Shown piece by piece: positions 1 through 64,000 of a stretch of DNA of 64,000 nucleotides. Source of the stretch: Crambe crambe (taxonomy: Eukaryota; Porifera; Demospongiae; Poecilosclerida; Crambeidae). Position 1 is the first letter of the stretch, and every line of letters starts with the position of its first letter. The stretch spans positions 4,792,404 through 4,856,403 of the forward strand of contig OZ004597.1 of assembly GCA_963924555.1 (NCBI GenBank), written 5' to 3'. The notes below the pieces were generated by a model that saw only the letters and a list, made by a program, of their open reading frames with translations, was not told the origin of the DNA and made no database searches. The position numbers were made by a program, and so were the translations under genes.

Positions 1-1398
1 AGCACTCATCAACGTCTATCAAGTTATTGAAAACTATATTATTTGGGCATGCAAGAATAATTCAACATTCTTACCGATGCATCTGACAGATGCATCATCA
101 GCATGAGAGCAAGAATGAAGGCCCAGTGTTTTGCTGCATTCTGTTATGCTTAATTCTGTCCCAGAACACGATAGCCGTTCCATGAATATCGGTCCTAATC
201 CTTGCCCAAATGCTGCCCCAGAAGATGCTTCAGCTCCTATAATAATAAAAACAATTGAATTGTAGTTCTCTCCACACTAGTAACTTTTTTTAGAGATTAC
301 TTGTAAAAGGCACGTGTAGTTGGTTACAAATGACAGTGGCATCTTTGTTATTGAACCCATTGTCACATATTGTGCCCCAGGCTCTATTGATACAGACTTC
401 CACTCTGCCCTCAAGCACATTAGTGCCTCCCACAAGACGAATGTTGCCATCAGAGCAATCACTGGAGGGAGTATCATCTTTACCTACACATATATGCACT
501 GGTTAGTAAGACACAAGATTTGATGAGTTATCTCACTTTGACAGAAAACAACAGCACTCTCTTGTGTGGAGCAGAAGCCGGAGGTTGTAGCTTTGCAGTC
601 TTGTAGTGCTAATTCAGTTCCATTACATTCAACAGTGCTGAGGTTAAAGTTCAATTGGTTACTAGATGCAAACAATCCTCCACTATGAGCAATAGCACCT
701 GAAAGAGGAAAAATTTGGCTTCAAACTAACACGATGAGATACGGACAGACATACCATAGGATGAAAATCCTAGTTGTCTACACACTACAGAAGCATCAAG
801 ATTATCCCACAAATCATCACACACACTTTGGTATTTTCCATTATAACAGATTTCCACTCTTCCCATCATGAGATAATCATAGTGTCCTTCATCGAGATAG
901 TCTTCGTTCTCGTTGGTTCTCAGAAGGCGAACATCACCATCTATACATGCTCCTATGGTTAACAAAAAGAGTCATTGTGATCTGTCATTATGATAAGTAC
1001 AAATTACCATCACATATAACTCCAGCAATCTCAGTAGAGTCACAATTGTGAATGCCGAGACCATTATGAGTACAGAGAAGCAGATTGTTCTCGTTTCCTC
1101 GACAAATGATGTTATCAACGAGTACTGGGGCAGAAGAGTTACAAAAGTGTGCACTCTTCACGGGAATGGAGTCTGCATAATTATGCTGGTTAGACATAAA
1201 ATGTAAGATGTTCTGAAGTTATTTTGCCTTGAAAAGTAAATCCCAGCTGTCTGCATATCACTCCTGCATCAAGGTTGTCCCAGCGGTGGCTACACACTGT
1301 CCAATAGGAGTTGTTATAACACACTTCAACTCTTCCTTCTCCACCGCTTGTAGATGGACCAGAACTATTCATCAGGCGCACATTTCCATCAGAACATA
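1..1398 (-). CDS. Unit 12 SRCR block a-b-c and first bases of its inner EGF (cut by window edge)
   Basis: Exons: a 1228-1398 + 1008-1172; b 755-952 + 537-698; c 301-477 + 75-236; then EGF 1-15, only the D-V-D-E-C start. Exon a1 ends at a GC donor (GCAAAATA) at 1226-1227. Domain a1 is [19 protein letters not shown] then EGRVEVC. The D-V-D-E-C start and the order predict that the type A 219-bp exon continues left of the window. Confidence 0.85.

Positions 1399-64000: not shown

Follow-up and report, generated by a model that had tools for sequence, protein, structure and literature searches.

The stretch of 64,000 nucleotides of the demosponge Crambe crambe analyzed here (the window) is most likely the middle part of one giant adhesion GPCR gene, in which a long array of EGF and SRCR exons is joined to the ends found on both sides. 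We examined 304 kb, consisting of the window plus 200 kb below and 40 kb above it. The joined model of this gene (gene A) goes from +80,067 to -28,447 in window numbering and spans 108.5 kb, of which the window is the middle 64 kb. It has 458 exons and encodes 23,699 residues, with a mass of about 2.56 MDa before sugars (computed on a model 24 residues shorter, 23,675 aa). Along the 71,100 coding bases there were 0 internal stops and 0 phase mismatches, and the 457 introns had 453 GT and 4 GC donors and 457 AG acceptors. The predicted order is signal peptide, NIDO, EGF/SRCR array, HRM-like, GAIN-GPS, linker, GAIN-GPS, 7TM and tail (Table 1). We joined the ends manually on the basis of three-frame readings, and some exon edges are uncertain, as in the S2 exons of 72-111 bases. 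The initial annotation had described the window as one uninterrupted gene and proposed an extension beyond it to locate the ends; both were found, and the single-gene reading gained support.

Table 1. Location of the features described in the text. Coordinates are in window numbering (minus numbers lie below position 1) unless marked as contig positions; gene A corresponds to contig positions 4,763,900-4,872,500 approximately.
Feature	Position	Strand	Comment
Start exon of gene A, signal-peptide-like MVMIYSLILLSSSTCSG	80,067 to 79,879	-	three-frame reading, ATG
NIDO exons	77,875 to 77,229	-	Pfam E=1.7e-37
EGF/SRCR array	75,882 to -21,730	-	430 exons; first exon set by hand (program put start codon there)
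Window share of EGF/SRCR array	1..64000	-	285 exons touching, 72 SRCR, 153 EGF, phase 1-1
Pfam-scanned example unit	2583..6867	-	six SRCR stretches and EGF domains, 1,059 residues
HRM-like exon	-21,827 to -22,050	-	HRM below Pfam cut-off
First GAIN-GPS (predicted)	-22,113 to -23,329	-	HL/S motif
Linker	-23,575 to -24,869	-	between the two GAIN-GPS
Second GAIN-GPS (predicted)	-24,932 to -26,275	-	HL/T motif, then TNFAVLVN
7TM, tail, stop	-26,408 to -28,447	-	7tm_2, Pfam E=1.7e-34
Window part of A-B shared block	1..10163	-	98.9%, exons constrained
Window part of A-C shared block	26865..64000	-	98.8%, exons constrained
Array part in neither constrained block	10164..26864	-	no long block common with B or the compared part of C
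Paralogue B	about -61,900 to -124,748	-
Paralogue C	-147,036 to about -256,000	-	middle left out of comparisons
NIDO loci (contig)	4,869,657 (A); 4,727,705 (B); 4,644,129 (C)		whole-genome search, among the matches listed
7tm_2 exon pairs (contig)	4,764,658/4,765,571; 4,668,357/4,669,270; 4,537,063/4,538,017		among the matches listed
GPS (contig)	4,769,066/4,766,131; 4,672,768/4,669,845; 4,542,103/4,539,106		whole-genome search, 106 of 106 scored

Within the window (G+C 39.2% by base counts) the splice-aware model placed 285 exons on the minus strand, 284 of them wholly inside, and all 285 were in phase 1-1, with every intron phase allowed in the model. The coding bases amount to 43,728, or 14,576 codons in the final model, and no stop or phase mismatch was found across these exons. 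Our own HMMs gave 72 first and 72 second SRCR halves and 153 EGF matches, counts that are partly circular because exons predicted in this same region had served to build the array HMMs. These figures reproduce closely what had been estimated from the sequence at the outset, namely 285 symmetric exons, 72 SRCR domains, about 150 EGFs and 14-15 thousand residues in the same minus-strand frame with phase-1 introns. When run on the plus strand over these 304 kb, the three HMMs (one for EGF and one for each SRCR half) gave only 0, 0 and 2 matches. Pfam was applied to 1,059 array residues and both gene ends out of the total of 23,699; in the array unit of that size it recognized six SRCR (PF00530) stretches (E=2.1e-116) and seven EGF_CA stretches. 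The trait of the SRCR superfamily is thus present by Pfam in one unit and by our own HMMs 105 times over the whole array.

The complete array of gene A has 430 exons with 105 complete SRCR domains and 237 EGF matches, and no half SRCR was left over. All 430 exons are multiples of three and in phase 1-1. Every one of them carries an EGF or SRCR match (17 of the 430 carry two), and toward the 3' end the block S3 E3 S3 E6 is repeated eight times consecutively. The exon finder was trained on EGF exons with all intron phases allowed, and was later supplemented with HMMs for EGF and for each SRCR half-exon. Three apparent phase breaks of the intermediate models were due to GC-AG introns, read by eye near window positions 1,260, 7,940 and 16,370, and GC donors were then allowed. 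With them all the 429 internal array exons were in phase 1-1, and four GC-AG introns appear among these exons in the gene A model. Unconstrained Viterbi training was also tried and discarded, since it drifted into the flanks and produced two over-long genes, one of 855 exons.

The reading as a single gene comes from one frame running end to end, from array introns of at most 894 bases and from the lack of a second NIDO, GPS or 7TM listed in the array. Specifically, the whole-genome searches located no NIDO, GPS or 7tm_2 inside the array among the matches listed (the best 150 of 233 were scored for 7tm_2, the best 150 of 211 for NIDO and 106 of 106 for GPS). A row of head-to-tail genes, in which secreted EGF/SRCR proteins would be followed by a separate adhesion GPCR, seems to us improbable. 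It is true that successive passes of gene finding divided the 304 kb into 10, 9 and then 5 pieces, the array being a single piece only in the third, and that four array introns are 525-894 bases long. Besides, a signal-peptide-like ORF followed by a donor (in any phase) was present in 5 of the 18 array introns of at least 150 bases. However, the same scan, which recovered the start exons of A and C as positive controls, gave 3/18 introns on the reversed strand and, in shuffled sequences, 2.04 on average (n=50, range 0-6). The internal signal-peptide-like ORFs are thus within chance, though above zero, and the check for such exons in the long introns, which could have split the gene, came out at chance level. 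Against separate genes there are also the 458 exons free of stops and phase breaks, the mere 96 bases between the last SRCR exon and the HRM-like exon, and the order NIDO, two GPS, 7TM that genes A, B and C share.

The start exon of gene A is hydrophobic, signal-peptide-like and conserved in B and C by reading and comparison, and the NIDO and the EGF/SRCR array follow in its frame. At the other end, 7tm_2 (PF00002) scored 119.7 bits, where the cut-off is 20.6, and two stretches matched GPS (Pfam E=2.2e-27). The GPS motifs are CNHLSTF, from residue 22,551 of the model, and CNHLTNF, from residue 23,195; His-Leu-Ser/Thr at the GPS are the cleavage residues of adhesion GPCRs. Pfam did not return the GAIN family in the gene A ends or the array unit, and the linker had no match in Pfam or PDB. 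The best PDB match over GAIN, GPS and 7TM was ADGRG6/GPR126 (21du, E=2.4e-48); the second GAIN-GPS matched solved ADGRG6 and ADGRL3, and the first ADGRG6, ADGRG1 and BAI3. On these predicted features (a secretin/adhesion-type 7TM, GAIN-GPS with HL/S and HL/T, and a long modular N-terminus) we class the product of gene A as an adhesion GPCR. The window had been taken at first for part of a giant modular extracellular protein. Its size stood, and the array is now predicted to be the ectodomain of a 7TM receptor, not a secreted matrix protein, which was rejected on the 7TM end being in frame. A nidogen-type matrix protein (NIDO and EGF without 7TM) was discarded as well: the NIDO is present, yet the frame continues into the 7TM. 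As a small difference, in the exon at -22,772 to -23,082 gene A is without two residues (Tyr-Glu) ahead of the first GPS that are present in B and C.

Gene A belongs to a tandem family of three (A, B and C), all on one strand, at contig 4.53-4.87 Mb. By the matches listed, each member has one NIDO, then its array, two GPS and one 7TM, and none of the three arrays has such a match listed inside it. The B array has 226 exons, with 61 SRCR and 112 EGF, and all of its 225 internal exons are in phase 1-1. For C, 216 exons lie in the first 50 kb, with 35 SRCR and 151 EGF; here 214 of 215 internal exons are in phase 1-1, the exception being located at the cut end of the sequence. All the 28 hand-built end exons of gene A were recovered in B (0 stops, 99% of 1,730 residues), and 26 of the 28 at their own place in C (0 stops, 88% of 1,690 residues). 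The array lengths of A and B differ, and 250 of the 430 gene A exons have a partner in B at 97% or more. Gene A resembles B at its 3' end and C in the middle, and this, together with the shared near-identical exons, suggests that blocks of exons have been exchanged repeatedly, both inside each gene and among the three. Unequal exchange of such phase-1 blocks, inside gene A and with B and C, is probably how the array grew and still changes.

The two long blocks that gene A shares with its paralogues allowed us to look for constraint. With B it shares 40.0 kb at 98.9% (A -29,781 to 10,163) and with C 39.9 kb at 98.8% (A 26,865 to 66,628), the latter reaching the edge of the C sequence compared. 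In the A-B block, exons had 161 mismatches over 26,894 bases (0.0060) and the non-exon bases 162 over 13,021 (0.0124; Fisher p 7e-11). In the A-C block the values were 159/25,673 (0.0062) and 147/14,018 (0.0105; Fisher p 5e-6). Non-exon bases are introns plus, in the A-B block only, 1.3 kb beyond the stop. The exon mismatches at codon positions 1, 2 and 3 were 41, 35 and 85 for A-B and 38, 35 and 86 for A-C. Indels were 3 (A-B) and 1 (A-C) in exons against 48 and 54 outside them. Judged by these patterns of substitution, the exons are under coding constraint in both comparable 40-kb blocks, where they differ about half as often. For the ends of A and C, dN/dS was 0.485 at a dS of 0.14. This ratio is slightly off, because the C sequence compared ends before HRM 1, so that HRM 1 was paired with HRM 2, and one 22-residue exon was left unpaired. 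It is very hard to believe that the giant gene is decaying or non-functional. Nothing was found in favor of decay, though recent duplicates can look intact through youth, and the 71,100 coding bases with 0 stops, the constraint in the shared blocks and the dN/dS of the ends (one wrong exon pairing included) all speak against it. A pseudogene was rejected on the exon constraint.

The similarity of about 99% between A and B could also come from haplotype duplication. Heterozygosity is frequent in sponge genomes. In an assembly artefact, A and B would be two haplotypes set in tandem, or near-identical units would have been mis-joined, and the array would really be shorter. The shared blocks of 40 kb at 98.9% and 39.9 kb at 98.8% fit this, and we also counted in its favor that, in the accessible part of the Crambe assembly note, curation is described as having removed 18 haplotypic duplications (PMC12166358). 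On the other side, the 304 kb contain no N, and the 40-kb blocks hold 323 and 306 mismatches plus 51 and 55 gaps. This is about one difference per 110 bases, so that accurate long reads could separate the copies. Besides, A and B differ in array length, and A resembles B at one end but C in its middle part. Altogether we consider such an artefact unlikely.

How much of gene A reaches the protein is a different matter. We infer that the gene would be transcribed and spliced into a single full-length mRNA, and we give even chances to the full-length protein being a main product. It is possible, with a clearly smaller likelihood, that the gene is one by its frame and yet gives mainly shorter isoforms, the full-length protein being rare or never made. 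Internal promoters, exon skipping or internal poly(A) sites would then lead to secreted or short-ectodomain products. This agrees with the preferred reading on the gene and departs from it on the product, so the likelihoods given to the different readings overlap. The symmetry of all 430 array exons means that any set of them could be skipped without frameshift, and exon skipping leaves no trace in genomic DNA. The three sponge relatives of the 7TM end also span 1,078-2,036 residues (in a search limited to 0.55-1.75 times the query length). On the contrary, the exons are constrained in both 40-kb blocks and internal starts were not above chance.

These three sponge proteins are the closest relatives of the GAIN-GPS-7TM end among the candidates scored, at 35-39% identity. 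The search scored the best 7,978 candidates and considered only proteins of 0.55-1.75 times the query length; among them there were 4 matches at E<=1e-10, the fourth (28%) from the insect Hyposmocoma kahamanoa. The sponge proteins are Em0023g301a (P0041, 1,078 aa), whose prefix presumably stands for Ephydatia, EMCRGX_G013970 of Ephydatia muelleri (P0042, 2,036 aa) and an ADGRG6-like protein of Amphimedon (P0043, 1,418 aa). In the Pfam scan they had fn3, Ig or one EGF, with no SRCR and no NIDO, unlike gene A, and they are an order of magnitude shorter, although the length limit of the search would hide longer relatives. A second GPS stretch was found in P0041 too, and gene A is thus not alone in having a doubled GPS. 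The HRM-GAIN-GPS stretch of P0042 aligned to both gene A modules, at 36% (7TM included in the alignment) and 26%, in support of a tandem duplication of this module. The exon with TM5-7 and the tail gave 40 matches at E<=1e-5, the top two matching gene A and gene C at 99.7%.

Compared with known receptors, gene A resembles ADGRG6/GPR126 in GAIN, GPS and 7TM, the best match among solved structures. ADGRG6/GPR126, unlike gene A, has a short ectodomain made of other domains and a single GAIN-GPS. With ADGRV1/VLGR1, which is part of fibrous inter-membrane links, it has in common the very long adhesion GPCR ectodomain. However, ADGRV1 has Calx-beta, pentraxin and EPTP domains in place of EGF/SRCR, is about a quarter of the gene A length, and its 7TM structure was only weakly matched (E=2.8e-4). 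Neither Calx-beta nor short consensus (Sushi) repeats were found by Pfam in the gene A ends and one array unit, and by our own HMMs each exon of the array has an EGF or SRCR match. Adhesion GPCRs with SRCR were already known from a sponge. In the accessible text of Krishnan et al., two from Amphimedon queenslandica with multiple SRCR repeats (Aq712029 and Aq715659) are called unique to the best of their knowledge, and among 40 sponge adhesion GPCRs HRM is given in at least 8 and GPS in 28 (PMC4302439). They are like gene A in having multiple SRCR repeats ahead of an adhesion-type 7TM, whereas that portion of the account, a comparison by description only, mentions no array of such size, NIDO or doubled GPS. 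The aggregation receptor of Geodia is another SRCR receptor of the sponge cell surface and, as described in the text available, has short consensus repeats (PMC4557014), in contrast to the gene A array, which is all EGF/SRCR and ends in a 7TM. In Aplysina aerophoba, microbial molecules elicit a response from an SRCR gene and from a gene placed among adhesion GPCRs (PMC6208332). We found no larger GPCR among the papers listed, which covered few subscription titles, and any priority is thus tentative.

If the full-length receptor is made, a working model can be drawn from its motifs. Each GAIN would cut itself, and the extracellular fragment would stay non-covalently held. The EGF filament, stiffened by calcium, would be roughly a micrometre long if extended, given the sizes of such domains. 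At a long distance from the membrane, the SRCR and NIDO domains might attach to matrix, microbes or other cells, all of them candidate ligands for SRCR. A pull or binding may then expose the tethered TNFAVLVN sequence behind the second GPS and switch on the 7TM. The first GPS could be an extra release point or mechanical fuse, since a linker, and not a membrane helix, comes after it. The complete picture is speculative, and we consider it doubtful as a whole: sponges would make the largest known GPCR, of about 23,700 residues, with a NIDO-tipped micrometre filament, more than 100 SRCR sites, an upper GAIN as fuse and a lower one as trigger, and exchange of arrays between paralogues would give individual binding repertoires for recognition of self/non-self or symbionts. 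The human receptor described as the largest of this class has a quoted size only a little above one quarter of that of the predicted product. If true, it would test the length that the tether of an adhesion GPCR can reach without loss of signaling, the handling by the cell of an mRNA with 71 kb of coding sequence and 457 introns, and the possibility of a two-step release by doubled GAIN-GPS modules. Sponges face self and microbes without an adaptive immune system, and SRCR recognition arrays joined directly to a GPCR, in a tandem family with differing array lengths, would be a testable candidate for recognition.

In the cytoplasmic tail (-28,444 to -27,448) there are two (L/V/F)PPH(V/I)-like motifs, perhaps a docking site, that are kept in three relatives (P0003, P0004 and P0006) with no more than 44-52% identity. 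One of them, P0006, is part of a related receptor (one exon) but is listed as belonging to Cycloclasticus, a symbiont living in a Poecilosclerida sponge, and that bacterial bin is thus probably contaminated with host DNA.

The surroundings of the three genes also showed some features. Another cluster of SRCR matches, in alternating orientation and with 7tm_2 fragments nearby, is located on the same contig at 5.27-5.78 Mb. The whole-genome GPS search (106 of 106 scored) gave no match there, which weakens the idea that these SRCR arrays end in 7TM genes. Plus-strand genes are found upstream of A (+80,700 to +91,400) and of B (-61,600 to -52,700), and the similarity of these two stretches suggests that they were probably duplicated along with the receptor genes. 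One ORF on the plus strand, +82,096-83,610, matched glycosyl hydrolase family 76 (E=2.5e-18) and somatomedin B (E=1.5e-8). Between B and C there is an intact open frame of 2,035 residues on the minus strand (-138,389 to -144,493) with Chlamydia-PMP-type repeats (PF02415, E=9.5e-28, with 1,498 of its residues searched) and, by eye, membrane-helix-like segments near its end. A broken copy of it lies between A and B on the minus strand, at about -46,700 to -51,700. The same interval holds, on the plus strand (-41,111 to -40,029), an open frame that by eye is reverse-transcriptase-like.
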